From the NCBI RefSeq assembly GCF_001442805.1, contig NZ_CP011131.1:1736001-1800000 (forward strand): 64,000 bases of DNA, given 5' to 3'. Below are positions 110-33,003 of this stretch, piece after piece. This DNA is from Lysobacter gummosus. GTDB lineage: Bacteria > Pseudomonadota > Gammaproteobacteria > Xanthomonadales > Xanthomonadaceae. The notes beneath the pieces are model-generated. The model worked only from the letters and a program-made list of their open reading frames with translations, made no database searches and was not told the origin of the DNA. How positions within the stretch are numbered: the stretch's first letter is position 1; each line of letters starts with the position of its first letter. The position numbers were made by a program, and so were the translations under genes.

Positions 110-565
110 ATGAGCGCCCGGCCGTTCCAGCTATTGCAACTCGACCACGTGGTGCTGCGCGTGCGCGACACCGCGGCGATGATCGCCTTCTATTGCGACG
201 TCCTGGGCTGCAGCGTCGAGCGGCGCCAGGACGCCATCGGCCTGGTGCAGTTGCGCGCCGGTTCCTCGCTGATCGACCTGGTCGATGTCGAAGGCAAGAT
301 CGGCCGCATGGGCGGAGCCGCGCCCGGCGAGCAGGCGCGCAACATGGATCATCTGTGCCTGCGCGCCGAACCTTTCGATCGCGACGCCATCGTCGAGCAT
401 TTGCAGGCCCACGGCGTGCGCATCGGCGACTTCGGCTCGCGCTACGGCGCCGAGGGCGAAGGCCCGTCGCAGTATTTGTTCGATCCGGAAGGCAATCTGG
501 TCGAACTCAAGGGGCCGCCGGACCAGGTGCCGATCGACACCCACGCCCCCAACGCAGCGACCTGA
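110..565 (+). CDS. VOC/glyoxalase-family protein
   Basis: A 151-residue single-domain vicinal-oxygen-chelate protein. The N-terminus has the usual first strand with a metal-ligand His (LDHVVLRV, H13), then the FYCDVLGC turn. A second HLCLRA strand and a C-terminal GNLVELKGP strand carry the expected ligand Glu. Family members are lyases, dioxygenases or resistance proteins, and the substrate cannot be read here. The start at 110 puts the VOC strand near the N-terminus; an in-frame ATG at 59 would add 17 residues with no family match. The stop overlaps the next start (ATGA), so it is probably co-translated with the exporter, which hints at a drug or toxic-metabolite role (inference). Confidence 0.85.
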   Translation: MSARPFQLLQLDHVVLRVRDTAAMIAFYCDVLGCSVERRQDAIGLVQLRAGSSLIDLVDVEGKIGRMGGAAPGEQARNMDHLCLRAEPFDRDAIVEHLQAHGVRIGDFGSRYGAEGEGPSQYLFDPEGNLVELKGPPDQVPIDTHAPNAAT

Positions 566-18498: not shown

Positions 18499-19128
18499 CT
18501 AACGGGACGCGAGCGGTCGTTGCATTGTGGTCGCCGGCGCGGACCGTGGCTGTGCCACCGCCATCAGTTCGCGCAAGGTCTGCTTGTCGTTGATCTCGCC
18601 CACGTGCTGGTAACGCACGCGGCCGTCGCGGCCGATCACCAGCAGCGACGGCACCTTGCGCGCGCGGAACAGCGCGGAGGTGCGGCGGTCGTCGTGGGCG
18701 ATCAGCGGGAAGTCGAGCCCGTGTTCGCGCGCGTAGGCGGCGGTCTGCGCGGGCGAGGCGAAGGCGACGCCGATCAGCTCGGTGCCGCTGGAGCCCGCGC
18801 GCAACTGCTCGGCCGCGCGCTTGAGCTGCGGCAGCGAGGCGCGGCAACGCGGGCAGGTGGTGGTGAAGAAGAACAGCACCTGGGTATCGGCGCGCGGCTG
18901 GCCGAGTTCGCGGGTCTGTCCGTCCAGCGAGGTCAGCGCGACCTTCGGCACGTACATGCCGACGTAGGGTTGGGTGACGCGATCGACCAGCCAGCGCTGG
19001 TCCGCGCGCATGCGTCCGACCTGCCAGCCCAGCGCGAGCACGAGCGCGGTGGCGAGCGCCAGCGCCGCCCACAGCAGGCGTGGACCGAGCCGGGAAAACG
19101 GGTTTTGGGTGTCGGGTGGCGACGACAT
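18499..19128 (-). CDS. TlpA/ResA-type membrane-anchored thioredoxin
   Basis: 209 residues. An N-terminal membrane anchor (LLWAALALATALVLALGW, about residues 18-35) leads to a periplasmic thioredoxin/AhpC-TSA domain with active site TTCPRC (Cys-x-x-Cys) and the cis-Pro region VPSLLVIGRDGRV. It would reduce or rearrange disulfides in the periplasm. The six-cysteine peptide gene 196 nt downstream on the same strand is a plausible client (inference). The last 15 residues are a basic tail. Confidence 0.85.
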   Translation of the reverse strand: MSSPPDTQNPFSRLGPRLLWAALALATALVLALGWQVGRMRADQRWLVDRVTQPYVGMYVPKVALTSLDGQTRELGQPRADTQVLFFFTTTCPRCRASLPQLKRAAEQLRAGSSGTELIGVAFASPAQTAAYAREHGLDFPLIAHDDRRTSALFRARKVPSLLVIGRDGRVRYQHVGEINDKQTLRELMAVAQPRSAPATTMQRPLASR

Positions 19129-19392
19129 GCCTGCGACCCTAACAGCGCTCGCGAGCGGCGAACTTGACGCGGCTCACAGTGGCGACGCGGACGCGCGCGA
19201 GCGGCGTTCGGCGCCGACGAAGCGGGCGCGGCGACCGCGCCGCTCGCGCCCGACTCGGGAATCCGGCGCTTTCCTGCGCGTGCGTACACAGCACCGCGCG
19301 ACCCGGATCGCCGGGCCGCGCAGTGCCTCGTCATGACGATTGTCAGGCGCGGCCGGTGTTCGCCGTTCGCCGCGCCCGCGACTGCGCCGAGG

Positions 19393-20295
19393 TCAGCCCG
19401 CGCATTCGCGCGTCGTTGGCAACGCGAGCGCCGGCTTCTGCCGCAGCGCCTGCGCCGTCGCCACACCCAGCAGGGTGAGGCCGCCGCCGATCCAGTGATA
19501 AGTCTGCAAGGGCTCGCCGAGCAGCAGCACCGCGAACACGGCGGTGAACACCGGGGTGAGGTTCATCAGCACCGCGGTCTTGTCCGCGCCCAGCCGCAGC
19601 AGGCCGTGCATCCAGAACCACGGCGCCAGGGTCGAGGCGAACACGCCGGCGTACAGCACCAGCGGCAGGTTGTGCGCATTGAGCGCCACCGACGGCGCCA
19701 GCAGGAAACCCGGCAACAACAGCACCGTGCCGCAGACGATCTGCAGGTACAGCGATTCGCCGTTGGGAATCGGCAGCGCCCAGCGCTTGACCAGCACGCC
19801 GTACAGCGCATACGAGCACGCCGCCAGCAGCATCATCAACTCGCCGCGGCCCAGGCCTTGCTGCAGCAACCGCGCCGGATGGCCGCCGCTGAGCAGCCAG
19901 CTCAGGCCGGCGAAGGAAATCACCGCGCCGATCAGCATCCCCGGCGACGGCCGGGTCTTGAGCACGACCATGCCGATCAGCATCGTCATCGGCGGAATCG
20001 CCGCGACGATCAGGCCCATCGACATCGCGCTGACGCTGTGCGCGGCGAAATACGCCAGCGATTGATACATCACCATGCCCAGCGCCGACAGCACCAGCAG
20101 CTTGCGCCAGTACGGGCGCACCTGCGCGCGCAGCTTCCACACCCGCGGCAGCATGTACGGGGTCAGCACCAGCAGCGCGACCAGCCAGCGGTAGAACGAG
20201 ATCGCGGCCGGTTCGATGGCGCCGGCCGACAGCTTGCTGACGATCGTGTTTCCGGCCCAGATCAGCGTGGCCAGGATCGGCAGTAACAGATGCAT
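19393..20295 (-). CDS. EamA/DMT-family transporter
   Basis: A 300-residue, ten-helix inner-membrane protein with two EamA halves. The first starts LLPILATLIWAGNTIVSKL. The second contains LMLLAACSYALYGVLVKRW and ends with the typical LTPVFTAVFAVLLLGE helix. Family members export amino acids or metabolites or act as drug/metabolite exchangers. The ATG at 20295 starts directly at helix 1. It is divergent from an AraC regulator, with a 30-bp palindrome between them, so it is probably controlled by that regulator. Confidence 0.88.
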   Translation of the reverse strand: MHLLLPILATLIWAGNTIVSKLSAGAIEPAAISFYRWLVALLVLTPYMLPRVWKLRAQVRPYWRKLLVLSALGMVMYQSLAYFAAHSVSAMSMGLIVAAIPPMTMLIGMVVLKTRPSPGMLIGAVISFAGLSWLLSGGHPARLLQQGLGRGELMMLLAACSYALYGVLVKRWALPIPNGESLYLQIVCGTVLLLPGFLLAPSVALNAHNLPLVLYAGVFASTLAPWFWMHGLLRLGADKTAVLMNLTPVFTAVFAVLLLGEPLQTYHWIGGGLTLLGVATAQALRQKPALALPTTRECAG

Positions 20296-20349
20296 TGCGG
20301 GATTCCTTCGTACAACCGGTACAACGGTGGGGCGGCCTATTCTAGAATG

Positions 20350-20379
20350 TCGGGTAATCGGCAGATGCCGATAACCCGA
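20350..20379. promoter_or_regulatory. Palindromic operator between eamA-like and araC-like genes
   Basis: Arms tcgggtaatcggca and tgccgataacccga pair at 13 of 14 positions across a 2-nt spacer. The site is centred about 70 nt from the transporter start and 40 nt from the regulator start. Its position suggests the binding site of the divergent regulator or of a dimeric regulator of both genes. Confidence 0.6.
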
Positions 20380-20404
20380 CACGCCGTAGCGAAGCCCGGA
20401 CAAG

Positions 20405-21175
20405 ATGCGCCGCAGCCGCCAATTCCATTACCCCTACCGCTCGTTGCCGGGCCCCTTGCTGCTGCGCTACGAGGCGCTGGCGGTGGATACCGAAAGCGCG
20501 CTGCACCAGCATCCCTGGGGCCAGCTGGCGTTCGTGGAATCGGGCAGCATGGCCTTCGTGGTCGAAGGCCAGCCGTTCTTCGCGCCGCCCGGTTACGCGG
20601 TGTGGATTCCGCCGCGCATGGATCACACATCGCACAACCGCCGCGAGGTGAAGTGCCGGCTGATCAATATCGCCGAGCGCTACACGCCGAGCCTGCCCAG
20701 GGCGCCGGGCATCGTGCGTCTGCATCCGTTGTTCATCGCCGGGGTCGAGGACCTGTTCGATCGCGGCGTGGAGATCCCCGACACCCCGGCCGACCGGCGC
20801 CTGGCGCGGGTGTTGATCGACAAGCTGCTGGCCACGCCGATGCTGCAGCGGTTCGTGCCGCAGAGCGAGGACCGCTTGCTCGGGCCGATCCTGGACGCCT
20901 TGCAGCATGCGCCCGGCGACAACAGCACGCTGGAGGAATGGGCGCGGCGGGTGCATACCACCGAACGCACCTTGAGCCGGCGTTGTCGCGACGAGCTGGG
21001 CATGTCTTTCAGTCAGTGGCGGCAGCGCTTGCGCTTTCAGCAATCGATCCCGCTGCTGGAGCAGGGCCGCAGCGTGCAGCAGGTTGCGGCGCAGATGGGC
21101 TATGCCAGCGCATCTGCGTTCATCGCGATGTTTCAGCAGTTCAGCGGGACTACGCCGCAGAAGTTTCGGAAATAG
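20405..21175 (+). CDS. AraC-family transcriptional regulator
   Basis: 256 residues. The N-terminal half is a cupin-like sensor (HQHPWGQLAFVESGSM, FAPPGYAVWIPP, HTSHN). The C-terminal half carries two AraC helix-turn-helix motifs, the first around TLEEWARRVHTTERTLSRRCR and the second around VQQVAAQMGYASASAFIAMF, ending GTTPQKFRK. This is the short AraC subtype that often controls a neighbouring exporter. It is divergent from the EamA transporter, which is the likely target, and it probably controls itself through the palindrome at 20350. Confidence 0.9.
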   Translation: MRRSRQFHYPYRSLPGPLLLRYEALAVDTESALHQHPWGQLAFVESGSMAFVVEGQPFFAPPGYAVWIPPRMDHTSHNRREVKCRLINIAERYTPSLPRAPGIVRLHPLFIAGVEDLFDRGVEIPDTPADRRLARVLIDKLLATPMLQRFVPQSEDRLLGPILDALQHAPGDNSTLEEWARRVHTTERTLSRRCRDELGMSFSQWRQRLRFQQSIPLLEQGRSVQQVAAQMGYASASAFIAMFQQFSGTTPQKFRK

Positions 21176-21240
21176 AGCGACGCTCGTGCTGTCCTTCCTC
21201 TAACAGCGCCCTCGCTGTTCCTCTGACAGTGTTCTTGCTG

Positions 21241-21350
21241 TTCCCCCCTTTGAAAAAGGGGGGCAGGGGGGATTCGCTTTTGTCTTTGCCTTTAGCAACA
21301 ACAGCAACAGCAAATCCCCCTGCCCCCCTTTTTCAAAGGGGGGAACAGCA
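21241..21350. repeat. Palindromic interspersed repeat, family C, copy 2
   Basis: Outer arms ttcccccctttgaaaaaggg and cccttttt-caaaggggggaa flank ggggggattcgcttttg and caacagcaaatcccccc-like inner arms. It is the most compact of the three copies and sits in the gap between the convergent AraC and amidohydrolase genes. Confidence 0.85.
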
Positions 21351-21401
21351 AAGGCGGGGGGGCGATGCGGGGTGTGCGGCTGCGCGCGGGAGACGCCGAC
21401 C

Positions 21402-22838
21402 TCACTCCACTTCGGCCGCCACGCGCTTGCGCACATCCTCCAACATCGCATCCAACGCCTTGCGGTCATAAACCTTGCCGCGCAATACGAAGGTATCGAT
21501 CTTGCGAGTCGCGCCGATATCGCGCAGCGGATCGGCATCGAGCAGAACGATATCGGCGGCCTTGCCCGCTGCGAGCGAGCCGTGCAGCTTGTCCTGCCCC
21601 ATAAAGCGCGCGCCGTTGATGGTCGCCGCGCGCAAGGTCTGCAGCGGCGTCAGGCCGCTTTCGACGAAGCGCTGCATCTCATCGTGCAGGCCCACGCCGG
21701 GGTAATTGAAGGAATTGAGGAACCCCGCGTCGGTGCCGGCCAGAAGGTTCACCCCCGACTGCTGCAGCAGCGGCAGGATAGCGGCGTCGCGCTCGTAGCG
21801 CGCATGCCGGCGTTCGATCGCCGCCGCGTCGTCCTTGGCCGCGCGTTCCACCCGCCAGGCGTAGGTCGCGCGCAGGCCCGGGCCGATGTACTTGAGGTAG
21901 TCGTCGCCGCGGTGATCGTCGCGATCCAGATAGGTGGTTACGAAGCTGCCGTTGAGCGTCGGGGTGACCGCGGTGCCGCGCCGCGCCAGGCGCCGGTACG
22001 CCGCGCGCGCGGTCTTTTCGTCGAAGCTCGCCTGGATGCGGTTCCAGCCCTCCTTGGCGTCGATCTCGCCGCGCCGGACCATCGCGCCGATGTCGGCCTC
22101 CTGGGTCGAGCCGGCCTTGTACGCGTAGTCGATGTGCTCGATCGAACTCAGGCCCGCCGCGCTGACTTCGTCGATGGTCAGCGAGAACGGCACGTGCGCG
22201 GACACGCGCAAGCCGCGCGCATGCGCCTGCTTGAGCGCGTCCATGAACAATTCCGGCGAAAGGGTGTTGTCGGTGATCTTGACGAAATCGACCTTCCAGC
22301 CCTGCAACCGGTCCAGCGCCGCGGAGATCTCTTCGTGGCTGCCGACTTCGATGTCGCCCGGCCAGATCGATTTGTAGCCTTCAAGCTTCGGGCCCGAGGT
22401 GAAAATCGTCGGGCCCTGCAGCGACCCGGCCGCGACCGCGTCGCGCCATTCGAACACGCTCGGGCTCAGGTCGCCGGCCGCGTCGCGCACCGCGGCGATG
22501 CCGTGGGCCACGTACAGCGGCAACAGATTCTTGTTTTCCTCGATCAGCTTGTCGCCGCCGCCGAAATGCACGTGCATGTCCCACAGGCCCGGGATCGCGT
22601 ACTTGCCTTGCGCATCGATGCTGCGCGCGGCGTCGAAACCCGCGGCCTTGGCGTCGGCTTCGATCGCGACGATGCGGTCGCCGCGCACGGCGATCAACCG
22701 GTCCGCACGCAGCTTGCCGGCGACGACGTCGATCACCGCGGCGTGGCGGATCAGCAGATCCACCGGCTCGGCGGCACTGGCGGCGGCGGACGCGCACAAC
22801 AACAGCAGCGCGGCGGACACACGGGATTGAGTGGGCAT
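21402..22838 (-). CDS. Secreted amidohydrolase (imidazolonepropionase/prolidase-like superfamily)
   Basis: 478 residues. A signal peptide (ALLLLCASAAASAAE, residues 10-24) precedes an amidohydrolase fold. The metal motif is MHVHFGGG (H89, H91), further ligand-type His lie in RVSAHVPF and IEHIDY, and the late Asp is in GTDAGF. The C-terminal strand cap ADIVLLDADPL is typical. It is likely a zinc-dependent periplasmic hydrolase of cyclic amides or peptides, but the substrate is not readable. The start at 22838 begins the signal peptide; the open frame upstream to 23078 overlaps the next promoter region. Confidence 0.87.
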   Translation of the reverse strand: MPTQSRVSAALLLLCASAAASAAEPVDLLIRHAAVIDVVAGKLRADRLIAVRGDRIVAIEADAKAAGFDAARSIDAQGKYAIPGLWDMHVHFGGGDKLIEENKNLLPLYVAHGIAAVRDAAGDLSPSVFEWRDAVAAGSLQGPTIFTSGPKLEGYKSIWPGDIEVGSHEEISAALDRLQGWKVDFVKITDNTLSPELFMDALKQAHARGLRVSAHVPFSLTIDEVSAAGLSSIEHIDYAYKAGSTQEADIGAMVRRGEIDAKEGWNRIQASFDEKTARAAYRRLARRGTAVTPTLNGSFVTTYLDRDDHRGDDYLKYIGPGLRATYAWRVERAAKDDAAAIERRHARYERDAAILPLLQQSGVNLLAGTDAGFLNSFNYPGVGLHDEMQRFVESGLTPLQTLRAATINGARFMGQDKLHGSLAAGKAADIVLLDADPLRDIGATRKIDTFVLRGKVYDRKALDAMLEDVRKRVAAEVE

Positions 22839-23058
22839 GCGGACTCCTGACAGGGCCGGTGGACGGAAAGCGGAAACGGCCGGCCCATTCTGCCGCAGCG
22901 CGGCCGCGCGCCGGGTCGGCGACCGCCAACCCGGTCTTATTCCGCCAGACCCGGTCATGTCCATAATGGCGGCCGTGCCGCGACGATGCGGCCGGGCCGT
23001 GTTCCGTCCAATCAGACCCGCGCCGGCATTGCGGCGCCATGCCCACGGGAGGGGCTGG

Positions 23059-25230
23059 ATGAGGAAAGTCAAACGCATCGCGACGCCGCGTTCGCTCAGG
23101 CGCCGGGAGTTGCTGGACTGGGCGCACGAGATGACCGGCTTCTATGCGCGGCCGGCGAAAGTGCGGGCGGGGATGAGGCCGCCGTTCGAGCGCTACGACA
23201 AGTTGTTTCTCGGCGAGGATGTGGTCGCGGCGCTGGGCCTGCAGTTCAGCGACAAGTGCGCGTATTGCGAAATCCTGCTCGAGCCGGGGCAGGCATTGAT
23301 CGATCCGTTCCGACCGACCATGTCGGCGTCGGACCCCGCCACCGGCGAGCAAAGCGCCGATCACTACGCATGGCTGGCGTACGAGTGGCGCAATCTGGTC
23401 TTGGCGTGCCGCGAATGCGTTTCGGCCAAGCGCAATCATTTCCCCTTGCGTTCGCCGCGCGCCCGGCCGATGACGGCGTGGCGGGAAACCGTCGCGCTCG
23501 AAAAAAACCTGTTGATCGATCCCTGCCGGGATGAACCTGGCCGCCACCTGCATTTCCTGGGCAACGGCCGGCTGGCTTCGAAGGACGACAAGGGCGCGGC
23601 GACGATCGAGCTGCTCGGCTTGAATCGCGACTCTTTGGTCGAGGCGCGACGGCAAAGGATAGATCATGCGCTGAACTGGGTTTCTTCCCAGCTTTATCAT
23701 GAAGTTCTGGAAGATTTTCCCGATGGCAGCGCGCCGCATTGGGGCGCCGCGCTGTCGGCCCTGGATTCGGTGTTCTCCGCGACGATGCGGCGGATAGGTA
23801 GGCGACCGGGGGCGGGGCCGCGCTCGGTCGATCATCTCGGTCAATTGTTGGGACACGCCGAGGCGTGGAACGCCGCGGTCGCGGAGTATCTGAGCGATGT
23901 CATGGATGCGAACCGCCCGAGTCCGCCCCTGCCTACCGCTCCAGCTGGAAGACCGAGCAGCTGGTGGCCGCCGGCACCGGTCTACGTCGAATCGATCGTG
24001 GTGAACGACTTCAAGGCCATCGACGATCTGCGCCTGGAATTCCCGTCGCTGGGATCGGCTCGGGGCGAGGCCGCCAGCGTGATGCTCCTGGGCGAAAACG
24101 CCGCAGGTAAAAGCAGCGTGATGCAGGCGCTGGCGTTGGCGCTGATGGATGAGTATCAGCGCAAGGCCAGCCGCGCGCAGGGCATCGAGTTTCTTCCGCG
24201 CGATCGCGAGAACTGGGGCGTGTTGCCGGTGTTGCCCCGGGTCGAGGTGATCCTGTCTTCCGGCGAACGGCGCTGCGTTCATGTCGATGCGCTCGGGCGC
24301 TATCGCGACGAAATTAATGGTCGCGTGCCGATGGTGCTGGGTTACGGCGCCCGCCGCTTCTTCAAGGCGCATCAGGCCAAGACCGCCGGCCCGGCGCGCA
24401 GCTTGTTCGACCCTTTCGCTGTGCTGGAAGACCCGTCCGGATGGCTCAGGGAAAGCACCGCGGTGTACTTCGAGCCGGTCGCCCGCGCCATGCGCGAGAT
24501 CCTCGCCCTGCACGGCGACGACCGCGTGTTCCGGGCCGACGACGGCCATGTGATGGTTCAGGCCCACGGCCGGGTCACGCCGGTGGAGCGCATGAGCGAC
24601 GGTTACCGCGCCTTGTTCGCGATGGCGGTGGACATCATGCGGCGCATGGTCGAGGTCTGGGGCAACCTTGAGTACGCGCAGGGCATCGTCTTGATCGACG
24701 AGATCGACGTGCACCTGCACCCGCGCTGGAAGATCGAAGTGATCTCGGCGCTGCGCCGGGCGATGCCGAAGGTGCAATTCGTGGTCACCGCTCACGACGC
24801 CCTATGCCTGCGCGGCATGCGCGACGGCGAGGTACACGTCCTGTACCGCGACGAACACGACCGCATCCGCCTGCGCGAGGATCTGCCCAACATCGAGCTG
24901 ATGCGCACCGATCAGTTGCTGACCTCGGACTTGTTCGGCCTGCTCAGCACCGCCCGGCCCGAGGTCGATGCGCATCTGCATCGTTACGCCTATCTGCTCG
25001 GCAAGCCGGAACTCGACGCCGGCGAACAGCGCGAGCGCGAGTTGCTGGCCGGGCATGTGTCGGCGTTGCCGCTGGGTGACACGCCGACAGAGCAACTGAT
25101 CGGCGAGGCCACCGAGCGCTATCTGCGCGGGCGCCGCAGCAAACCCGTCGCCGAACGCGCCAGCATGCGCGAGGACGCATTGCGCGAAATCGTCGCCTTG
25201 CTCGAAGCCGGCGCGGAGCGGGAGGCATGA
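23059..25230 (+). CDS. HNH nuclease domain fused to RecF/PtuA-like ATPase
   Basis: 723 residues. An N-terminal HNH-like domain has zinc cysteines C67-x2-C70 (CAYC) and C117-x2-C120 (CREC) with the intervening DHYAWLAYEWRN. Then comes an SMC/RecF-type ATPase: Walker A GENAAGKSS at 345-353, a signature-like MSDGYR near residue 512, Walker B GIVLIDEIDVHLHP from 542, and switch FVVTAHD. The organisation recalls PtuA of Septu plus an extra nuclease domain. At the position where the partner has EHYRPK, this domain reads DPFRPT, so the usual HNH histidine appears absent. GGGAGG lies just upstream of the ATG at 23059. The stop overlaps the next start (ATGA). Confidence 0.82.
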   Translation: MRKVKRIATPRSLRRRELLDWAHEMTGFYARPAKVRAGMRPPFERYDKLFLGEDVVAALGLQFSDKCAYCEILLEPGQALIDPFRPTMSASDPATGEQSADHYAWLAYEWRNLVLACRECVSAKRNHFPLRSPRARPMTAWRETVALEKNLLIDPCRDEPGRHLHFLGNGRLASKDDKGAATIELLGLNRDSLVEARRQRIDHALNWVSSQLYHEVLEDFPDGSAPHWGAALSALDSVFSATMRRIGRRPGAGPRSVDHLGQLLGHAEAWNAAVAEYLSDVMDANRPSPPLPTAPAGRPSSWWPPAPVYVESIVVNDFKAIDDLRLEFPSLGSARGEAASVMLLGENAAGKSSVMQALALALMDEYQRKASRAQGIEFLPRDRENWGVLPVLPRVEVILSSGERRCVHVDALGRYRDEINGRVPMVLGYGARRFFKAHQAKTAGPARSLFDPFAVLEDPSGWLRESTAVYFEPVARAMREILALHGDDRVFRADDGHVMVQAHGRVTPVERMSDGYRALFAMAVDIMRRMVEVWGNLEYAQGIVLIDEIDVHLHPRWKIEVISALRRAMPKVQFVVTAHDALCLRGMRDGEVHVLYRDEHDRIRLREDLPNIELMRTDQLLTSDLFGLLSTARPEVDAHLHRYAYLLGKPELDAGEQRERELLAGHVSALPLGDTPTEQLIGEATERYLRGRRSKPVAERASMREDALREIVALLEAGAEREA

Positions 25231-26138
25231 GATACGTCGATCGCGGCCGCATCGCGCCGCCGGCCTCGTTGAGCGATCCCGACGGCGCCGGCGCGCGCGA
25301 ACGCGCCAATGCCGAGGCTCACTACCGCGATCCGCGGGCCGGTGCGTACAAGTTCAAGGCCTACAAGGGCGATGACGTCAAGCTGGCGTTGCGGACCTTG
25401 TTCGACGGCAAATGCGCGTACTGCGAGTCGCGCCACGAATCGACGTCGCCGGCCGACATCGAGCACTACCGGCCCAAGGCGGGCGTGGTCGGCGAGGCCG
25501 GTCATCGCGGTTATTGGTGGCTGGCGGCCGACTGGACCAATCTGCTGCGCAGCTGCATCAGCTGCAATCGCGTGGAAGGCCACCGGATCGCGGCGGTCGG
25601 CATGAGCGCCGCGCAGATCGCCGCGCAGGCCACGCGCAACGCCGGCAAGGGCAATCTGTTTCCGATCGCCGCCGCGCGCGCGTTCCAGCCCGGCGACGAC
25701 TGCGACGGCGAAGATCCGTTGCTGATCGATCCGACCCGGCGCGATCCGGCCGCGCATTTGCGCTGGCACGTGGCCGAGGATTTGTCGCTGTTGGCGCCGC
25801 GCTTCGACGATAGCGGCGCGGATGCCTACGGCGAGCGTACTGTCGAGATCATGGCCTTGAACCGGCAAGCGCTGGTGGAAGCGCGCAGCCGGCATCTGCA
25901 GCGGCTCAACGAGTCGCTGCTGGACTTGGAAGAAGCGCTGGACGAAGCGGCGCAGGCCGATCCGGCCGACATCGCCGGACCGCTGCGGCGCGCGGCCAGG
26001 AAGCTGGCGAGTCTGCATGCCGCGACCGCGCCGGATCAGGAATTTTCCGCGATGGCGCGAGCGTTCGTCGAGGATGCGCAGCAGCGGTTGCTTGCGCGGT
26101 ATCGCGAGTTGATCGGGGCGATCGGCGCCGCGGTGTAG
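25227..26138 (+). CDS. HNH endonuclease, PtuB-like
   Basis: 303 residues. Zinc cysteines are C63-x2-C66 (KCAYCE) and C110-x2-C113 (CISC). The HNH core EHYRPK has His80, and DWTNLLRSC supplies the Asn. After the nuclease domain, LLIDPTRRDPAAHL and IMALNRQALVEARSRHL match the same segments of the fused upstream protein, so the two are paralogous over about 200 residues. This fits the PtuB/retron-effector HNH family (TIGR02646 type). It is translationally coupled to the ATPase. The expected role is a DNA- or RNA-cutting effector of an anti-phage system (inference from family and pairing). Confidence 0.82.
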   Translation: MRYVDRGRIAPPASLSDPDGAGARERANAEAHYRDPRAGAYKFKAYKGDDVKLALRTLFDGKCAYCESRHESTSPADIEHYRPKAGVVGEAGHRGYWWLAADWTNLLRSCISCNRVEGHRIAAVGMSAAQIAAQATRNAGKGNLFPIAAARAFQPGDDCDGEDPLLIDPTRRDPAAHLRWHVAEDLSLLAPRFDDSGADAYGERTVEIMALNRQALVEARSRHLQRLNESLLDLEEALDEAAQADPADIAGPLRRAARKLASLHAATAPDQEFSAMARAFVEDAQQRLLARYRELIGAIGAAV

Positions 26139-26220
26139 GCCGCGGGTCCGCACCCCGGGCCTCTGCCGCGCCCCGAAGGAAGTCGCCTTGGGTGGCAAGC
26201 GGGAGAGGGAGCATGAGGCG

Positions 26221-26258
26221 GACAAAGAAAAACCGGCCGAAGCCGGTTTTTCTTTGTC
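26221..26258. terminator. Bidirectional terminator between HNH and M2 peptidase genes
   Basis: Perfect 17-bp arms gacaaagaaaaaccggc and gccggtttttctttgtc with a 4-nt loop cgaa. T-rich stretches lie on both strands, so it can serve both convergent genes. Confidence 0.9.
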
Positions 26259-26295
26259 GTAAGCGGCCGCGAACTTCGCGCCCGCTCGGCAAGGC

Positions 26296-28326
26296 TCAGC
26301 CCTGCACAGGCTTACCCGGCTTGGCATCGGCCTTCGCAGGCTTGGCCGGCGAAACCGGCGCCGCAGCGCCCGCCGCCGAAGCCTGCCAGCCGCAGCTCTT
26401 GCCTTCGTTCTGCTGCTTGAGCCAGGTCTGCAGCGGCGCGAAGTATTCCAGCACCGCCGAGGCGTCCATCTTCTCGCCGCCGGTGAGTTCCTTCATGGTC
26501 TGCTGCCACGGCTGGCTCGCGCCCTTGCTCAGCATCGCCTCGAACTTCGCGCCCGCGGCCTTGTTGCCGTAGAAGCTGCATTCGTACAGCGGGCCCTTGT
26601 AGCCGGCCGCGTCGCACAGCGACTTGTAGAACTGGAACTGCAGGATATGCGAGAGGAAGTAACGCGTGTACGGCGTATTGCCCGGCACGTGGTACTTGGC
26701 GCCGGCGTCGAAGAACTCTTCGCCGCGCGCCTCGACCGGCGCCACGCCCTGGTACTTGGCCTTCAGCTCCCACCACGCCTTGTTGTAGCCATCGGGCTTG
26801 ATCGAACCGTCGAACACGCCCCAGCGCCAGCGATCGATCATCAGGCCGAACGGCAGGAACGAGACCTTGGCCAGCGCCATGCGCATCTGCGCGTTGATCA
26901 GCGCCTCGTTGCTCTGCTGCTGGCTGCCGACCATGCCGATCGAGGACAGGTACTTGGGCGTCATCGCCAGCACGATGGTGTCGCCGATGGCTTCGTGGAA
27001 GCCGTCGTGCGCGCCGGTCTGGAACAACGGCGGCTGCTTGTTGTAAGCCAGGTAGTAATAGACGTGGCCGAGCTCGTGATAGATCGTGGTGAAGTCTTCT
27101 TCGTTCGGCTTGATGCACATCTTCGTGCGCACGTCGCCGCCCATGTTCATGTCCCAGGCGCTGGCGTGGCAGACCACGTCGCGATCGCGCGGCTTGATGA
27201 ACTGGGTCTTGTTCCAATAGCTGTCGGGCAGCTTGGGCATGCCGAGCGAAACGTAGAAGTCCTGCGCGCGTTCGGTCATGCGCTTGGCGTTGGCCAGGTT
27301 GGCATCGACCTCGGCCTGCGCCTGCTCCAGCGGGCCGCGATCGCCGCCGGCCTTGGCTTCCTGCGCGTCGAGGATCTGCTGGTACTGGCGCGCCAGCGCG
27401 CCGTTGATGTCGAGGCTGCCGGCCTGCTGATCGCTGTACGGCGCCAGCACGTCCCACAAATTGCCCCAGTCCTGCTGCCACATGTTGCCGAGCAGATGCG
27501 CCGGCAGCATGCCGCCGCTGGCCTGGCCCTTGTCGGTGCCGTACTTGGATTCAAGGCGCGAGCGGGTGTAGCAGTGCAGTTGCTCGTACAGCGGCTTGAC
27601 CTGGCCCCACAGGCGATCGGTTTCCGCCGCCAGTTCTACCGGGCTCATGTCGTAGCCCGAACGCCACAATTCGCCGGTGTCGGCGTAGCCGAGATTCTTC
27701 GCGCCTTCGTTGACCAGTTCGACGAAGCGCGTGTAGTCCTTGCGCATCGGCTTGGAAATGGTGTGCCAGCCCTTCCAGGCGTCGAGCTGGGCGTCGTAGT
27801 CGCGGCTGTTGCGCAGCACGTCTTCAAGGTCGCCGAGCTGGCGGCAGTCGGTGTCGCCAGGGCCGCTGCAGTAGCTGCCCGAGCCGTACATGCCTTCCAT
27901 GCGCGTGGCGATCTGGGTGAGTTCGGCGAGCCGCGCCGGATCTTTCGGCGCCGGCATCGCGGTGCCGATCTTCAGCAACTGGATCGAACGCGCGGTGGCC
28001 GGCGACATCTGCTGGCCTTCGAATTTCTTCGACTGCTCGATCCAGCTGTTGAGCTGGGTCAGATAGCGTTCGTTGGCCTTGGCCGACAGCAACTGGCTGT
28101 CGTCGTTGATGTACGTCGACGACAGCCACTGCGCGGCGGTCATCTCCGGATACATCTTCTTGTACTCGTCGTTGACGCGAGCGATGAACTGATCCGCGGT
28201 TTCGCCCGCGGGCGCGACGGCCGGGGCGGTGGTGCTCGAGGAGGGGACGGGTTCCTTCTTGCAGCCGGCCACGCCGATCACGGCCGCAGCGACGCCGAGC
28301 GCCAACAAGGCGCGGACATATTTCAT
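26296..28326 (-). CDS. M2-family peptidyl-dipeptidase (ACE-like), lipoprotein
   Basis: 676 residues. A lipoprotein signal ([17 protein letters not shown], Cys22) leads to an ACE-like gluzincin. The zinc motif is HELGH at residues 417-421, with the third ligand Glu in GFHEAIGD about 24 residues later. The family length of roughly 600-700 residues fits. It would remove dipeptides from peptide C-termini in the periplasm or at the outer membrane. The C-terminal tail is Ala/Lys/Pro-rich and looks flexible. Confidence 0.92.
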
Positions 28327-28844
28327 GTGTGCTCTCTCCGGAATAGTGCTGCGCTTTGCGCGCGAGCCAGAAGGCTAGAGGCCGCTCGGGTCCCGCGCAA
28401 GCTGCAGTGCGACGGCGGGGCCGACCGGCTGCCGCGGCCGGAGGCGGCTTGTGAGCTTTTGCGCACATCCGGCACAAAGCCCAGACTGAAAACGGTTACC
28501 GGATTTCCGCCGCGAGGGCCGATTTGACCTATTCAGGTGTTTTCAACGCGCGGAACTGCAATCGTTGTCGCGATCTAATGTAAATATTTGGTTACGTGTA
28601 AACGGTTAGATTGTTAATTTTTCCGTATTCACATGGCTTGCACGCAACGCAGACAGATATCGTGCCCGGTTCGTTCAGGCGGTGGAACAGCGAGGGGCGA
28701 CGGCTCCTCGACCCCTGTCACAAAAACCGATTTGATTTGTGACGCCAAAACGGAAAAAGTGACGTCTAAGGGCAGCCGTTCATCGGTTGCCCGCCGGAAG
28801 CGGGGCAGGCTTCCAGCACCCGTCTTGGCTGCAATGGATAAGGC
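28327..28844. other. Intergenic region, partly AT-rich, with hairpins
   Basis: This region of about 520 bp has no convincing gene. 28555-28635 is markedly AT-rich (aatgtaaatatttggttacg) and may carry promoters. Nearer the next gene are an inverted repeat gtcacaaa...tttgtgac (about 28716-28742) and two short hairpins, gggcagcc/ggttgccc at 28770-28792 and ggaagc/gcttcc at 28796-28814, which suggest a structured 5' leader. Confidence 0.5.
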
Positions 28845-29234
28845 ATGAAATCTACGACGCGGACCGCGAGCGGCAAATTGCACACGGCCACCTTGACGAC
28901 ATTGCCACTGCGCGGCCGGGACGGCGGCGCATATCTGTTCACCGCCGACCTGAGCTGGGCGCGCGAGCACGCGCCGGCCCGTTCTCACGGCCGCCTGAGC
29001 GGCATCCATCTGGCCCGCATCGTCATGTTCGCGCTGCTGGCGCTGGCCGCGGTCGGCGTGGTGATGATGAACGGCCCGGCCGACGCCGGCCCCAACCTCA
29101 CCGGCGCGCGCGCGCTGCCCGATCCGGTCAACGAGGCCGAAGTCGAAGTCGATCGTGCTGTCCCGGTGCCCGTCGCGGCGCCGCGGGCGGCGTATGCCGT
29201 TGAAGACACGCAACGCAGGCCGGCCGCGCGCTGA
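28845..29234 (+). CDS. Small single-pass membrane protein, unknown
   Basis: 129 residues. A polar N-terminus of about 55 residues with no signal peptide precedes one membrane helix (IVMFALLALAAVGVVMM, about residues 59-75) and a Pro/Val/Glu-rich outer tail. No family was recognised. The ribosome site is weak (ATAAGG close to the ATG), but the long structured leader and the clear membrane helix support it as a gene. Confidence 0.55.
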   Translation: MKSTTRTASGKLHTATLTTLPLRGRDGGAYLFTADLSWAREHAPARSHGRLSGIHLARIVMFALLALAAVGVVMMNGPADAGPNLTGARALPDPVNEAEVEVDRAVPVPVAAPRAAYAVEDTQRRPAAR

Positions 29235-29436
29235 GGCGCGCGCCGCCAGGAACTCGGTGGGGGTAGGCGCCTGGATGGCGCATCAGGGGAAGGGAAGCAA
29301 CAGCAGTGCCAGTCGGAACCGGTTATGGGGATAGCCGGAACCGCAGAGTTTGAATGGCGTCGGCGCCAGGGAAGGCGTCGGTGACCGCTCTGCCAACCCT
29401 TTGCGTCGCAGCCCTGCCAGGCCTCAACAACCCTTC

Positions 29437-29709
29437 TCAGCCGCAAGCGCATTCCAGTCGTATCGCGATGATCGCGAGTGCGACGAACGCGCCGACCGAG
29501 GTCAGATGCACCGCCCATTCGCGGCGGTTGTAGCTCACAAGCTCCAGCGGATTGCGCGTCCAGAAGTTCCTGCGCTTACCGAGTCGTCGATGATTCATGC
29601 GCGAGGCACGGCAGGTGCCGGCGATGAGGATCGCCGTCGCCACGGCCATGACGATCAACGGCAGGCTGTCGATGAAAACCGGATGGTTGGCGGCGAGCGA
29701 ACTGCCCAT
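29437..29709 (-). CDS. Small two-helix membrane protein, unknown
   Basis: 90 residues with two hydrophobic helices (LPLIVMAVATAILIAGTC and SVGAFVALAIIAIRL) separated by a basic loop (MNHRRLGKRRNFWTRN). It ends with two cysteines. No family was recognised. Support is limited to composition and length, and an overlapping frame on the other strand looks like a shadow. Confidence 0.45.
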   Translation of the reverse strand: MGSSLAANHPVFIDSLPLIVMAVATAILIAGTCRASRMNHRRLGKRRNFWTRNPLELVSYNRREWAVHLTSVGAFVALAIIAIRLECACG

Positions 29710-29800
29710 GTCTGCGAGTCCGAAGGAGCGTGGGACAACGTCAGTTCGATTGTCGGGTAGGCGCCGCGTGTGGCGTCAGGACCTGTGCTGAGTCGGTGGC

Positions 29801-30274
29801 TCAGCGAATCAGGCTGCGCTCGGGTAGCTTCACCAATCCATGCGCAGCCAGCCACTGCCACGAACTCTCCGCATCCTGTTCGACATAAGCCCGCGCCGAT
29901 CCCAGGCGAAAGGTGTAGCCCCATTCGTCCATGTCGGCGAGGATGCGCTCGCTTCCGGCGCCCGGAATGGCGTCGCCCAGCAGCGACTGCAGCACGCACA
30001 CCGCGTCTTCTTCCTCGATCGAATCGGTCGCGTCGGTATGCACCTGGGCGCGGCGCTCCGGCGGCAGCACGATCAGGTGGCAGGCCTCGTGCAGCAGCGA
30101 GTGCACGGGCGTGTCGCCGCGCGCGTAGACGGTGCTGCCGATCAGGCCGGCTTCGCATTCGCCCCAATAGCTGCCCGGGATCGGCTCGCCGTCGGCGACG
30201 CGCTCCAGGCGCAGGCCGTAGCGCGCGAGCAGGGCGGCGACGTCGTCGAAGGCAATGTCGGACAGGGTCAGCAT
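29801..30274 (-). CDS. Putative zinc-metallopeptidase-like protein (HEACH motif)
   Basis: 157 residues with the motif LLHEACHLIVLPP, which has the HExxH pattern of metallopeptidases, followed by an acidic EEEDAVC stretch that could supply a third ligand. There is no signal peptide. The short length resembles small IrrE/SprT-like or uncharacterised proteins rather than secreted proteases. The start at 30274 begins a compact fold (MLTLSDIAFDDVAALLARYG); the open frame upstream is arginine-rich and unlikely. Confidence 0.72.
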   Translation of the reverse strand: MLTLSDIAFDDVAALLARYGLRLERVADGEPIPGSYWGECEAGLIGSTVYARGDTPVHSLLHEACHLIVLPPERRAQVHTDATDSIEEEDAVCVLQSLLGDAIPGAGSERILADMDEWGYTFRLGSARAYVEQDAESSWQWLAAHGLVKLPERSLIR

Positions 30275-30491
30275 GGTGCGGAAGGTTTCAGGGATGAGAG
30301 CGATGCTTGCGCGGATAGCGCGAACGGCGCCGACAGGGCGTGAGGCCTGGAACAGGACGTTGCGGCCGCTGCTGCGGCGCGTGGAGCGCATGCGGACGCG
30401 ACGCCGCTTCATTGGCGCTGTCGCGGCGTGCGCCGCTGCGGTTACCGGCAGATACGCGACAACGGCGTTGGCCGGGAGGCCGGCCGCGCCG

Positions 30492-30761
30492 TTACGCCTG
30501 CGCCGGATTCGGTGTTTCCGGCAGCGCGACGGAAATGTCGAGCACCTTGTTGTCGCCTTCGCCGATCAGGTCGACCTTGACCGATTCGGCATCGACGTTG
30601 ACGTACTTGCGGATCACTTCGAGCAGCTCGCGCTGCAGCATCGGCAGGTAGTCCGGGCCGCCGCCGCGTCCGGCGCGTTCGTGCGCGACGATGATGCGCA
30701 AACGCTCCTTGGCGACGGAAGCGGTGGGTTTCTTGGCCAGCAGGAAGTCGAACAGACCCAT
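30492..30761 (-). CDS. minE: Cell division topological specificity factor MinE
   Basis: 89 residues, the normal MinE length. The N-terminus [11 protein letters not shown] contains the membrane-targeting and MinD-binding start; [16 protein letters not shown] is the anti-MinCD helix/strand, and the C-terminal half is the dimerisation domain. It stimulates MinD ATPase and drives pole-to-pole oscillation so that FtsZ assembles at mid-cell. It follows minD by 4 nt in the operon. Confidence 0.97.
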
Positions 30762-30765
30762 AAGC

Positions 30766-31575
30766 TCAGCCTCCGAACAGCTTGGTGAAGAAGCCCTTCT
30801 TTTCCACTTGTGTGAAGCGCATCGGGCGGGTGTCGCCAAGCAGGCGCGCGACGGCATCGTCGTAGGCCTGGGCGGCATCGGATTCGGTTTCCAGGATCAC
30901 CGGCTCGCCCTTGTTGGAGGCGTTGAGCACGTCGCCGGATTCGGGGATCACGCCGATGGTCTTCAGGCCGAGAATTTCCTCGACGTCGCCGATGCTGAGC
31001 ATCTCCTGGTCTTCCACGCGCTTGGGGCTGTAGCGGGTGAGCAGCAGGTGTTCCTTGACCTTCTCGCCGTTCTCGGCGCGGCGGGTCTTGGACGCGAGCA
31101 GGCCGAGGATGCGGTCGGAGTCGCGCACCGAGGAGACTTCCGGGTTCACCACCACGACCGCCTGGTCGGCGAAGTACATGGCCAGGAACGCGCCTTTTTC
31201 GATACCGGCCGGCGAATCGCAGACGATGTAGTCGAAGCCTTCCGCGGCCAGGTCTTCCAGCACCTTCTGCACGCCTTCCTTGGTCAGCGCGTCTTTGTCG
31301 CGCGTCTGCGAGGCGGCCAGGATGTGCAGGTTGTCGAAACGCTTGTCCTTGATCAGCGCCTGCTTGAGGTTGGCTTCGCCGTTGACGACGTTGACGAAGT
31401 CGTACACGACGCGGCGTTCGCAGCCCATGATCAGGTCGAGATTGCGCAGGCCGACGTCGAAGTCGATCACCGCTACTTTGTGGCCGCGCCGGGCGAGGCC
31501 GCAGGAAAGGCTGGCGCTGGTCGTGGTCTTGCCGACACCGCCCTTGCCCGAAGTGACAACAATGATCTCGGTCAA
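30766..31575 (-). CDS. minD: Septum site-determining ATPase MinD (TTG start)
   Basis: 269 residues. The deviant Walker A is [11 protein letters not shown] near the N-terminus, with [14 protein letters not shown] and [11 protein letters not shown] as expected for MinD. The C-terminal amphipathic membrane-targeting helix is [11 protein letters not shown]. The family N-terminus starts right before [10 protein letters not shown]. No ATG is available there, but a TTG at 31575 has GGAGG 8 nt upstream, so TTG is the start; the frame is open further up but encodes minC shadow. It recruits MinC to the membrane and oscillates with MinE. Confidence 0.96.
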
Positions 31576-31588
31576 AATACTTTCCTCC
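31576..31588 (-). promoter_or_regulatory. Ribosome binding site that fixes the minD TTG start
   Basis: On the minus strand, GGAGG (31584-31588) is followed 8 nt later by the TTG codon at 31575-31573. There is no competing ATG with a Shine-Dalgarno sequence. Confidence 0.8.
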
Positions 31589-31600
31589 GTTCGTGCGGCG

Positions 31601-32392
31601 TCAATCCAGCGCCGCAATCTTGATTTGTTCGTCTTCCAGCCAGATCTGCACGGCCTTGCCGCGCAATTCCTTCGGTATGTCTTCGAGCACTTTGTAATGG
31701 CCTGCAATCGCCACGAGTTCGGCATGGAACTCGCGGCAGAAGATTCGCGCCTTGGTGTTGCCTTGCGCGCCGGCCAGCGCGCGTCCGCGCAACGGGCCGT
31801 AGATGTGCACCGAGCCGTCGGCGATGACTTCCGCGCCGGCGCCGACCGTGGTCAGCACGGTCAGGTCGCGGTTGTCGGCGTAGATCTGCTGGCCGGAACG
31901 CACCGGGGTGGACTGGATCATGCCGACCGAGGAGGCCGCCGTAGTCGCCGCGGGGGCGGCCGCGCGCGCGGCGCGAGCCGGTTCGGCGGCGGGTGCGGGC
32001 GCTTCGCGCTTGGGCGCCGGCGCCGCCGGGGCGTCCGTGCCGGCGTCGCTGCGCTCGTAGGAGGCGCGGAACTTGGCCAGCAGGGGCAGGCCCAGCGCCT
32101 GCGCCAGGCGGTCGGTCTCGCTGGTGCCGTAGGCCAGCGCCACCGGCAGCACGCCGGCGGCGCGCAGGCCGTCGAGCAGCGCTTGCGCGGTCGCGGTGTC
32201 CGGGGTGTGGCTCAGGCCGCCGAAATCGATCACCACCGCGGCGCGGCCGAACATGTTCGGCGCGCGCTGCACGCGGCTGCGCATTTCTTCCGTGAGTCGT
32301 TCGACGTCGAGGGTGCGGATACGCAGGTTGGCGATGCCGACCTGACCGATCTTGAGTTCGCCGGCCTGTTCGTAATCCACGGCCACGCTCAC
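31601..32392 (-). CDS. minC: Septum site-determining protein MinC (GTG start)
   Basis: 263 residues. The N-terminal domain begins at ELKIGQVGIANLRI. An Ala/Pro-rich linker (about residues 115-160) joins it to the C-terminal beta-helix domain (YADNRDLTVLTTVGAGAEVIADGSVHIYGPLRGRA, read in segments). It inhibits FtsZ polymerisation away from mid-cell with MinD. The GTG start overlaps the TGA of the upstream GNAT gene (GTGA), which supports this choice over longer frames. It is followed by minD after 25 nt. Confidence 0.95.
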   Translation of the reverse strand: MSVAVDYEQAGELKIGQVGIANLRIRTLDVERLTEEMRSRVQRAPNMFGRAAVVIDFGGLSHTPDTATAQALLDGLRAAGVLPVALAYGTSETDRLAQALGLPLLAKFRASYERSDAGTDAPAAPAPKREAPAPAAEPARAARAAAPAATTAASSVGMIQSTPVRSGQQIYADNRDLTVLTTVGAGAEVIADGSVHIYGPLRGRALAGAQGNTKARIFCREFHAELVAIAGHYKVLEDIPKELRGKAVQIWLEDEQIKIAALD

Positions 32393-33003
32393 GGGCAGGT
32401 TCCGGTGGGGCGCGGCGCGTCGGCCTGGACGCGGGCCACCGGCACGCGCGGGCGGGTCAGCCAGCTGGCCTCGGGCAGGGCGTCGCCGTAGGTGTCGCGC
32501 ACCCAGGGGTAGCTGCACAGCGGTTTCATCAGCATGGCCGCGCGCACGCCGGCTTCCTGCATGACGTGCTGGCCGACTTCGCGGAAGCCGAAGCTGCCGT
32601 GGAACAGCAGGGCCGGGTCGTTGCCGCCTTCCAGGAACACCTCGCAGGCCAGCTGCGGGTAACGCAGCTCGGCATAGCTCTGGGCGTCGGCATAGAACGC
32701 GCGGCCGACACCGCCGCCGCGGCGGCGGCTGGCGACGACGATGCGGTCGATATAGAAAAAATCCGGGTAGCGCTCAAGAAACCAGCGGAAATTGCTGCTG
32801 TCGTGGTCGCTGCCGGCGCCCATGCCGATCAAGAAACCTGCCAGGGTCCCGTCGCGCTCGGCGACGCGGAAGTACTCGGCGGTATCGAAAAAATGACGCA
32901 GACGGGCCGCATCCAGCGGCAGGATCGCGGGTCCGGCGGCGTTGTTGAGGGCAAGGACGGAATCCAGCTCGTGCTCACGCACGTCGCGGACGACGATCGA
33001 CAT
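32389..33003 (-). CDS. GNAT-family N-acetyltransferase
   Basis: 204 residues. The acetyl-CoA binding region is [20 protein letters not shown] (motif A, R/Q-x-x-G-x-G/A type). The N-terminal half is IVVRDVREHELDSVLALNN and the C-terminal part GSFGFREVGQHV. The substrate is unknown. It is the first gene before minCDE on the same strand and overlaps minC by 4 nt, so it is expressed with the division genes. GGAG lies 10 nt before the ATG. Confidence 0.88.
   Translation of the reverse strand: MSIVVRDVREHELDSVLALNNAAGPAILPLDAARLRHFFDTAEYFRVAERDGTLAGFLIGMGAGSDHDSSNFRWFLERYPDFFYIDRIVVASRRRGGGVGRAFYADAQSYAELRYPQLACEVFLEGGNDPALLFHGSFGFREVGQHVMQEAGVRAAMLMKPLCSYPWVRDTYGDALPEASWLTRPRVPVARVQADAPRPTGTCP

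Follow-up and report, generated by a model that had tools for sequence, protein, structure and literature searches.

Known relatives of the operon

Close known relatives of the operon analysed here include Septu systems of type I (PtuA1/PtuB1 in PADLOC), represented by PtuAB of E. coli (PDB 8eea, 8ee4, 8sux). PtuA and PtuB relatives also occur among the effectors of type I-A retrons (Ec78/Eco7 and Ec83; PDB 9nnb, 9kjx, 9e8z). According to the accessible parts of the respective reports, PtuAB systems vary in their target, which is either tRNA-Tyr or DNA (PMC11555353; PMC13096335). A PtuA-like ATPase in a multi-gene operon, as found here, is likewise described in the available part of the PtuXYZ report, where it is combined with DUF262 and YoeB-like proteins (PMC11980606). 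However, these partners differ from those of our locus and, as far as that part of the report goes, PtuX does not resemble PtuB (PMC11980606). We found no report of a fusion of a pseudo-HNH domain with PtuA or of block exchange in Septu within the literature covered, which includes parts of PMC8565338, PMC10952713, PMC11555353, PMC11980606, PMC12948488 and PMC13096335 and does not establish absence in print. The PtuA fusion itself is already represented in databases.

Gene layout and family assignment

The window, i.e. the whole stretch of 64,000 nucleotides from Lysobacter gummosus that was analysed, carries two overlapping plus-strand genes (Table 1). The first-pass annotation had described a 723-aa reading frame overlapping a 303-aa one by ATGA, and we confirmed this overlap as well as both starts (ATG 23059 and ATG 25227). 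Upstream of the ptuA start codon lies the purine-rich GGGAGGGG at 23047-23054. Long antisense reading frames, among them one of 804 aa at 22381-24795 (minus strand), were set aside, since PADLOC matches and relatives favour the plus-strand pair.

Table 1. Coordinates of the operon, its parts and its neighbours in the window
Feature	Position	Strand	Remarks
ptuA-type gene	23059..25230	+	723 aa; PtuB-like pseudo-nuclease, ABC ATPase and C-terminal helical tail
PtuB-like domain, PtuA residues 1-285	23059..23913	+	zinc/HNH part at about residues 60-130
Helices in the PtuB-like domain	residues 191-214, 228-245, 267-285	+	predicted structure
Asp82-Pro83, site of the HNH Glu-His	23302..23307	+	catalytic His replaced by Pro
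Linker, PtuA residues 286-305	23914..23973	+	low confidence; pLDDT about 50-57 (281-300 blocks)
ABC ATPase domain, about residues 308-650	23980..25008	+	invariant columns, predicted structure and fold comparison
PtuA C-terminal helical tail, residues 654-722	25018..25224	+	covaries with PtuB
ptuB gene (P0002)	25227..26138	+	303 aa; Glu79, His80, Asn105, Asn114 and four zinc Cys
Segment replaced relative to Lysobacter sp. ISL-50	22980..24640	+	leader and PtuA residues 1 to about 510-528
Amidohydrolase family gene, upstream neighbour	21402..22880	-	site marker, outside the system
M2-family peptidase gene, downstream neighbour	26296..28326	-	site marker, outside the system

Both proteins matched Septu models of PADLOC with scores far above chance. 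The PtuA model PDLC00288 aligned nearly full length with the 723-aa protein (residues 1-720, 919.7 bits) and the PtuB model PDLC00328 with residues 1-292 of P0002 (314.8 bits), while a further PtuB model, PDLC00339, matched residues 4-206 of PtuA (126.7 bits). A profile of 57 fusions found solved PtuA chains (best E 4.2e-33) and, between profile positions 42 and 250, solved PtuB chains (best E 7.1e-12, positions 51-229). Moreover, tblastn aligned the fused part of PtuA with P0002 at 31.7% identity across P0002 residues 44-278. Among solved structures a PtuB was matched by the PtuB profile A2 (best E 4.7e-9) and not by a search with the single P0002 sequence. P0002 stayed under the NCBIfam cut-offs of TIGR02646 (39.7 of 52.15) and NF041761 (43.2 of 150); the latter is the PtuB equivalog of retron Ec78, whose PtuA equivalog NF041760 (106.1 of 500) likewise scored under its curated cut-off. 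The fold comparison with the whole PtuA model covers mainly residues 122-668, so that the fused HNH region is placed by the sequence profile only.

Two features of a Septu system are present in the operon: an ABC ATPase of the PtuA type, in which Walker A, signature and Walker B are intact, and an adjacent PtuB-type HNH gene with an intact active site. We take PtuA residues 345-352 to be Walker A, 513-515 the signature and Asp547-Glu548 Walker B, and we name His579 with them. The solved E. coli PtuA begins at our residue 308 and therefore has no fused PtuB-like part; its lack of a nuclease domain of its own is not shared by the window protein, whose residues 1-285 are PtuB-like. PADLOC does not require PtuA to be free of a nuclease domain. 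Judged by its sequence the operon is a variant of the Septu family and not a new kind, because fusion-length PtuA is already covered by at least three PADLOC models (PDLC00288, 00291, 00292). The first-pass annotation, which had proposed profile and PADLOC searches, had read the 723-aa protein as an HNH-like N-terminus followed by a RecF/SMC-type ATPase, the two HNH regions as paralogous beyond the nuclease core and the operon as a Septu variant with an HNH-like module built into the ATPase itself. The PADLOC, profile and structure comparisons bear out these readings.

A damaged nuclease copy beside an intact PtuB

In the fused copy of the window D82-P83-F84-R85-P86 takes the place of E-H-Y-R-P, and both the catalytic His (now Pro83) and the last Asn are missing. 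P0002 retains E79-H80, N105 and N114, in line with the intact core around H80 noted at first pass; the zinc/HNH-like region noted in PtuA is real as well, but its broken D82-P83 core had been missed. The comparison was extended to relatives, for which the homologue sets comprise 120 of 232 and 120 of 451 matches, picked by likeness to the window proteins. The four zinc Cys, Arg85, Pro86 and Asn112 are invariant in all 119 fusions scored, whereas an acid at position 82 is kept in 73, His83 in 93 and Asn121 in 42 of them. In 26 of the 119, one of nine other residues (N, P, Q, R, S, L, T, M, W) stands in place of the catalytic His. Taken over the four catalytic positions, the set is complete in 20/119 fusions compared with 118/119 PtuBs.

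In all 46 operons scored the fusion is followed by an intact PtuB, and a PtuB partner was also present in all four further pairs that were read. A complete fused site was seen in 3 of the 45 readable operons (L117 is truncated and its HNH part not scorable), each time next to an intact PtuB. A dead nuclease is therefore not required everywhere, given these three operons and the 20 proteins. Outside the 46 loci, one truncated fusion (L061/L086, G256) ends just past the signature motif, and its 1.5-kb flank gave no PtuB match. The reading of operons left out L120. For the window we rejected the assumption that both HNH domains are working nucleases, because neither the His nor the last Asn is present in the fused copy; it may hold for the 20/119 relatives that have the complete site. 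Fusions that stand alone and replace PtuB were discarded as well, as PtuB was found at each of the 46 loci.

In the tree, 32 partner PtuBs fall on one side of a branch (support 99/95; 98% of 200 bootstrap trees). Hence the fused copy did not arise recently by duplication of the PtuB beside it, and the tree suggests that the split between the two is old. The fused copies were not recovered as one clade (three label changes), which leaves more than one fusion event possible.

Insertion site and neighbourhood

Within Lysobacter the operon is inserted at a single site, where some genomes carry it and others lack it. It was not found in 12 of 20 genomes of the genus, seven of which keep both neighbours. 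In a sample of the phylum 8/398 genomes gave a match, four of them end to end including the own genome; in one other genus the count was 20/298, and relatives also occur on plasmids. A two-class genome sampling with alignment A1 returned the query genomes only (1/385 and 1/369), but few candidates were scored per genome and prevalence is thus not well measured by it. Three phage records matched partially, and only to the ATPase part.

PADLOC revealed no convincing defence gene among eight neighbours in the window, the sole match (31.9 bits) being a MinD-like protein. As to the parts of a type I-A retron, no reverse transcriptase model of PADLOC matched these neighbours (18499 to 32518) at E 1e-5. 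For an msr-msd RNA next to ptuAB, no Rfam match reached the gathering score between 20000 and 30000, but the retron RNAs in question may be missing from Rfam. A relative on a Priestia plasmid (L115) adjoins an annotated retron reverse transcriptase. Outside Lysobacter, PADLOC defence matches lie near 4 of 9 loci examined: Hachiman HamA and HamB (L088), MkoC and RmrT/RmrA (L104), PifA (L089) and partial mad3/mad8 (L093).

The first-pass annotation had held that conserved housekeeping neighbours would speak against a role in defence. This applies in part, as the Lysobacter neighbours belong to conserved chromosomal non-defence families; nevertheless, they occur with and without the operon, and four of the nine outside loci have defence matches. 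A housekeeping ATPase/nuclease pair of Lysobacter would agree with the constant, core-like neighbours at one site and with a window that has no defence island. We consider it very improbable in view of the operon's absence from most of the 20 genomes of the genus, its sporadic and plasmid-borne occurrence elsewhere and the defence neighbours of its relatives.

Exchange of the N-terminal block

Between the window and Lysobacter sp. ISL-50 the flanks are near-identical, with 3.6-7.7% fourfold-site mismatches in five flanking genes, whereas a block from PtuA residue 1 to about 520 is replaced and the remainder of PtuA together with PtuB is not. Mismatches amount to 91/157 fourfold sites before PtuA residue 528 and 30/259 after it, PtuB included, and the changepoint at this residue was reached in 0/5000 permutations. 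Identity inside the replaced segment is 42-75%; after the break the mismatches (11.6%) are still higher than in the flanks. In a second genus, L099/L100 break at residue 517 (82/194 versus 55/269 fourfold mismatches) and L095/L100, in the reverse direction, at residue 490 (6/270 versus 55/282), each with 0/5000 permutations; along ptuA the exchange shows up as a dip or a plateau that covers roughly the first 1.5 kb. Both pairs include L100 and are thus not independent. Other breaks lie at 372 (L100/L101) and 598 (L095/L099), and five pairs tested for a changepoint had no significant break. Over all pairs the identities of N-block and PtuB rise and fall together, so that block exchange holds for particular pairs and not as free reassortment. 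Its inner boundary repeats at similar places in two genera (490, 517 and 528 in three pairs). The strongest of these statements rest on operons read from DNA; in the allele-pair table CA199, P11, CA196, P6, CGJS7, P5 and P9 were matched by inference, and L011, L013, L014, L016 and L017 were excluded as duplicates.

Divergence is strongest within PtuA residues 201-320, which comprise the helical part and the linker, and not in the HNH core. Pairwise dN/dS was highest there (0.16-0.52 in all 8 computable of 11 pairs), lower in the HNH part (0.08-0.38, 10 computable of 11 pairs), and the C-lobe had low values (0.015-0.13, 11 pairs). With pairwise dN/dS below 1 wherever computable, the variable region gives no evidence of positive selection.

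In type I restriction, recombination at conserved anchors swaps the specificity domains of HsdS and leaves the enzymatic part unchanged. The exchange in PtuA follows the same swap logic with other proteins and another fold, and by analogy its block may serve recognition. Unlike type I Septu, the window PtuA has both an internal PtuB copy whose active site is damaged and an N-terminal block exchanged between strains. The exchange is a hint that this block decides what the system recognises. However, since the ATPase N-lobe belongs to the block as well, the borders may mark where homology permits crossover rather than a function. Likewise, the C-terminal tail and PtuB are physically linked, and their shared inheritance proves no contact. 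A role in effector binding, as proposed at first pass, is disfavoured in its allele-specific form, since several pairs swapped the pseudo-HNH block and not PtuB, although both do diverge together over longer distances. Binding of a target or trigger by the fused module would fit these sequences better.

A possible mechanism and its alternatives

We tentatively favour, at somewhat less than even chances, a two-gene Septu-family defence with a regulatory duplication, in which pseudo-PtuB and ATPase N-lobe would be exchanged together as a recognition module, nuclease activity being left to PtuB. PtuB would be a working HNH enzyme, while PtuA would carry in cis an old PtuB copy that kept its fold and partly lost its active site, here and in most relatives scored, and that a flexible linker would join to the ABC ATPase. 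PtuB might dock on ATP-bound PtuA oligomers, the C-terminal tail of PtuA being a candidate docking site. Infection would be sensed by the pseudo-PtuB, either through contact with a phage component or with nucleic acid altered by the phage, or as a bait for phage anti-Septu proteins; together with the ATPase N-lobe it would release or switch on PtuB, which may then cut nucleic acid. Homologous recombination would exchange the whole block (1 to about 520), the inner seam lying in the conserved ABC signature/Walker-B segment; we propose that strains exchange it because phages change. The narrower version, in which the PtuB duplicate is a sensor or decoy domain that bacteria diversify at one chromosomal site by swapping a ~1.6-kb specificity cassette, the ATPase/nuclease chassis staying fixed and the signature/Walker-B segment forming the joint, is possible, although we put it at only about a third.

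The pseudo-PtuB could instead be an intramolecular placeholder or inhibitor that sets stoichiometry and threshold, either by filling the sites where PtuB docks on the PtuA oligomer or by pairing with PtuB as the silent partner in an HNH dimer, the block divergence being drift and chance recombination. Homology to PtuB over most of its length, the invariant zinc/Arg-Pro/Asn scaffold and several groups common to the fused and partner trees agree with this, as do solved relatives with fewer PtuB than PtuA, namely 6:2 in the accessible part of PMC12948488 and 4:2 in PDB titles. The identities of N-block and PtuB correlate over all pairs (r 0.72 for 8 Lysobacter operons, 0.91 for 16 others), which also speaks for it. 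Yet several pairs swapped the block without a matching PtuB change, so that any contact between pseudo-PtuB and PtuB must use conserved surfaces, and the role of a placeholder alone does not explain the fast 201-320 region; we regard it as rather unlikely.

That region lies in helices and linker, which also argues against a fused HNH domain that still binds or cuts an allele-specific DNA or tRNA target with PtuB, degenerate copies only binding it. The fully retained catalytic positions of 20/119 fusions, the invariant Arg85, Pro86 and Asn112 and the differing targets of known PtuAB systems would suit such a subunit, but the window copy lacks His and the last Asn, and we judge it unlikely. Nine different residues in place of the catalytic His are what a decaying, functionless HNH remnant in an ordinary Septu would accumulate, with the replaced block as a chance gene-conversion tract. 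This we find improbable, given that zinc Cys, Arg, Pro and Asn are invariant in 119/119 fusions, that dN/dS in the HNH part stays well below 1 and that the inner borders repeat in two genera.

Implications

If the N-terminal block carries specificity, the natural allele pair of the window and ISL-50, in which flanks and PtuB are near-identical but the N-blocks differ, would be a ready-made reagent for mapping the trigger via chimeras. The proposed sensor role, if true, would provide an example from bacteria of an immune protein that retains a dead enzyme copy as a sensor or decoy.

Results

In the fused domain of the window protein, Asp82-Pro83, Asn112 and Val121 occupy the places of Glu79-His80, Asn105 and Asn114 of PtuB, and the four zinc cysteines are retained. 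In keeping with what is known of HNH enzymes, we take the aligned Glu, His and two Asn to be the catalytic positions. Judged by its sequence, the fused HNH is a pseudo-nuclease. We scored 119 of the 120 fusion matches listed (232 in all; the partial P0021 was excluded for length) as well as 119 PtuB proteins, namely the window's PtuB (P0002) and 118 of 120 matches listed (451 in all; two short ones were excluded). Among these listed matches the four Cys, Arg85, Pro86 and Asn112 were present in 119/119 fusions, while the acid position was kept in 73, the His in 93 and the last Asn in 42 of the 119. The complete set of four catalytic positions was found in 20/119 fusions compared to 118/119 PtuB proteins, again among the matches listed. 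Fusions lacking the His carried N, P, Q, R, S, L, T, M or W instead, and nine different substitutes suggest that it was lost repeatedly.

In 46/46 operon loci (L numbers) the fusion was followed by a PtuB, always with the identical residues C,C,E,H,R,P,N,C,C,N. These loci come from Lysobacter and another genus of its class, from further proteobacteria and from plasmids, one of them of Priestia (Bacillota). As L006/L017 and L007/L010 are near-identical, about 44 loci are distinct. Where the fused HNH was readable, the His was kept in 12 of 45 loci and the full site in three, two of them L007 and L010. At the plasmid loci L118, L119, L121 and L122 the fused His was replaced by L, R, R and R, respectively, and the partner PtuB motif was intact. 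The L123 fusion has Gln at this position, and its partner groups with the partner PtuBs in the domain tree. The pairing was constant among the loci examined. For the truncated fusion L061 no PtuB match was found in the 1.5-kb flank. In a tree of 67 domains the fused copies did not form one clade, but all partner PtuBs (32/32) fell on one side of a branch with support 99/95, recovered in 98% of 200 bootstrap trees, so that fused and free copies appear to have separated long ago.

The Lysobacter operon is a present/absent insertion whose flanking genes encode, by Pfam, an amidohydrolase and an M2 peptidase. It was present in 8/20 genus genomes, its own genome counted; 7/20 had both neighbours without the operon, and in 5/20 the amidohydrolase neighbour was absent from the 9 kb examined. 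Given that ptuAB, another ORF or nothing is found there, this site is possibly a small integration hotspot.

Nucleotide comparison of the window with Lysobacter sp. ISL-50 (L005) in 100-base bins gave mostly 90-100% identity upstream, except for 21100-21400 (56-82%). From about 22980 to 24600 identity was 42-75%; past about 24600 it was 86% and then climbed to 89-100% across ptuB and the peptidase gene, with 65% in the intergenic bin at 26100. At the protein level, three sub-regions of PtuA residues 1-505 were 59, 26 and 57% identical, and identity was 96% for residues 515-640, 98% for 641-723 and 96% for PtuB. Fourfold-degenerate sites are independent of protein constraint. Here, mismatches numbered 91/157 before residue 528 versus 30/259 after (0/5000 permutations as extreme), and in five neighbouring genes they ranged from 6/169 to 19/272, at most 10/130 (3.6-7.7%). 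Therefore, the leader and the first two thirds of ptuA were swapped for a distant allele. The mismatch after the break (11.6%) is slightly above that of the flanks.

Block exchange also occurred in other pairs. In the genus of genome G256, identity between loci L099 and L100 was 83-98% at 5.2-7.0 kb and 88-94% at 8.6-10.2 kb of the region compared. It was 54-78% between the start of ptuA and about residue 530, and the fourfold break lay at residue 517 (82/194 before versus 55/269 after; 0/5000). L095/L100, a comparison which shares L100, broke in the opposite direction (6/270 before residue 490, 55/282 after; 0/5000). Breaks at other places were found in L100/L101 (residue 372; 0/5000) and L095/L099 (residue 598; 12/5000). 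For L003/L012, L006/L015, L099/L101, L094/L100 and L001/L003 the break was not significant (1023-1979/5000). L003 compared with P0006/P0131, a presumed protein pair, showed 92, 96 and 99% identity in the N-block, 54% in the tail and 48% in PtuB. The truncation point of L061 lies close to the exchange seam (one case).

None of eight window neighbours tested was a convincing defence gene. Elsewhere the surroundings favour a defence role: PADLOC defence matches lay near the fusion operon in 4/9 loci tested (20 neighbour proteins), and an annotated Shedu protein is among the neighbours of plasmid locus L111. L115, the only Bacillota record among 16 plasmid regions viewed, may connect the fusion form with retrons. 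At L119, L120 and L121 (3/16 annotated plasmid regions) a patatin-like phospholipase gene is annotated closely downstream of the PtuB gene in the same direction; its product is possibly a third component.

Features and neighbouring genes of the fusion loci
Locus	Position	Feature	Source
Window	29400-29800	another sharp difference from ISL-50 (34-41% aligned identity) within an otherwise similar region	
L018	G016:C1:3861339-3863501	additional, divergent fusion operon beside the standard one of the same Lysobacter-genus genome; one TGA within the match; fused HNH with Arg replacing His	genome search
L040 (G003)	about 70-2369	other long ORF, 479 aa stop to stop, at the M2-peptidase/amidohydrolase site; candidate DUF2235 hydrolase	resemblance by eye only
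L061	G256:C12, 1498-3339	N-block ending just past the ABC signature, without C-part	
L115	NZ_CP137804.1, 3806-7959	Priestia megaterium plasmid; fusion PtuA and PtuB, then retron reverse transcriptase on the opposite strand	annotation (reverse transcriptase)
L088		Hachiman HamA, HamB	PADLOC
L104		MkoC, RmrT/RmrA	PADLOC
L089		PifA	PADLOC
L093		mad3/mad8	PADLOC, partial matches

Discussion

PADLOC already covers both the family and a PtuA of fusion length. In the literature searched, which leaves out papers that are probably key, we found neither the pseudo-nuclease state nor the constant second PtuB nor an exchange of the block described. Published studies describe PtuAB systems in which tRNA-Tyr is reported to be depleted or cleaved or DNA to be acted on (PMC11555353, PMC13096335). 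For one of these systems it is reported that defence was abolished by PtuA Walker mutations and by PtuB HNH mutations alike, including H75 and N91 of PtuB (PMC13096335).

The fastest part of the block, residues 201-320, showed 12-42% identity to other Lysobacter alleles (40-column windows) and corresponds to the pseudo-PtuB helical end and linker in the predicted model. Pairwise dN/dS was 0.16-0.52 there, the top region in all 8 of 11 pairs computable, and 0.015-0.13 in the C-lobe. The exchange pairs combine the same N-block with different PtuBs or the same PtuB with different N-blocks, which makes a tight allele-specific fit of pseudo-PtuB to PtuB unlikely. Taken across all pairs, the identities of N-block and PtuB nevertheless correlate (r 0.72 for 8 Lysobacter operons and 0.91 for 16 others), so that exchange is occasional on a background of common descent. 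For the tail (641-723) and PtuB the correlation is tighter (r 0.99 and 0.96, respectively), which would fit docking but mere linkage as well. The exchanged block may serve in recognition or as a decoy; the whole mechanism, with an exchangeable recognition module and PtuB as the nuclease, we put forward tentatively and at less than even confidence.
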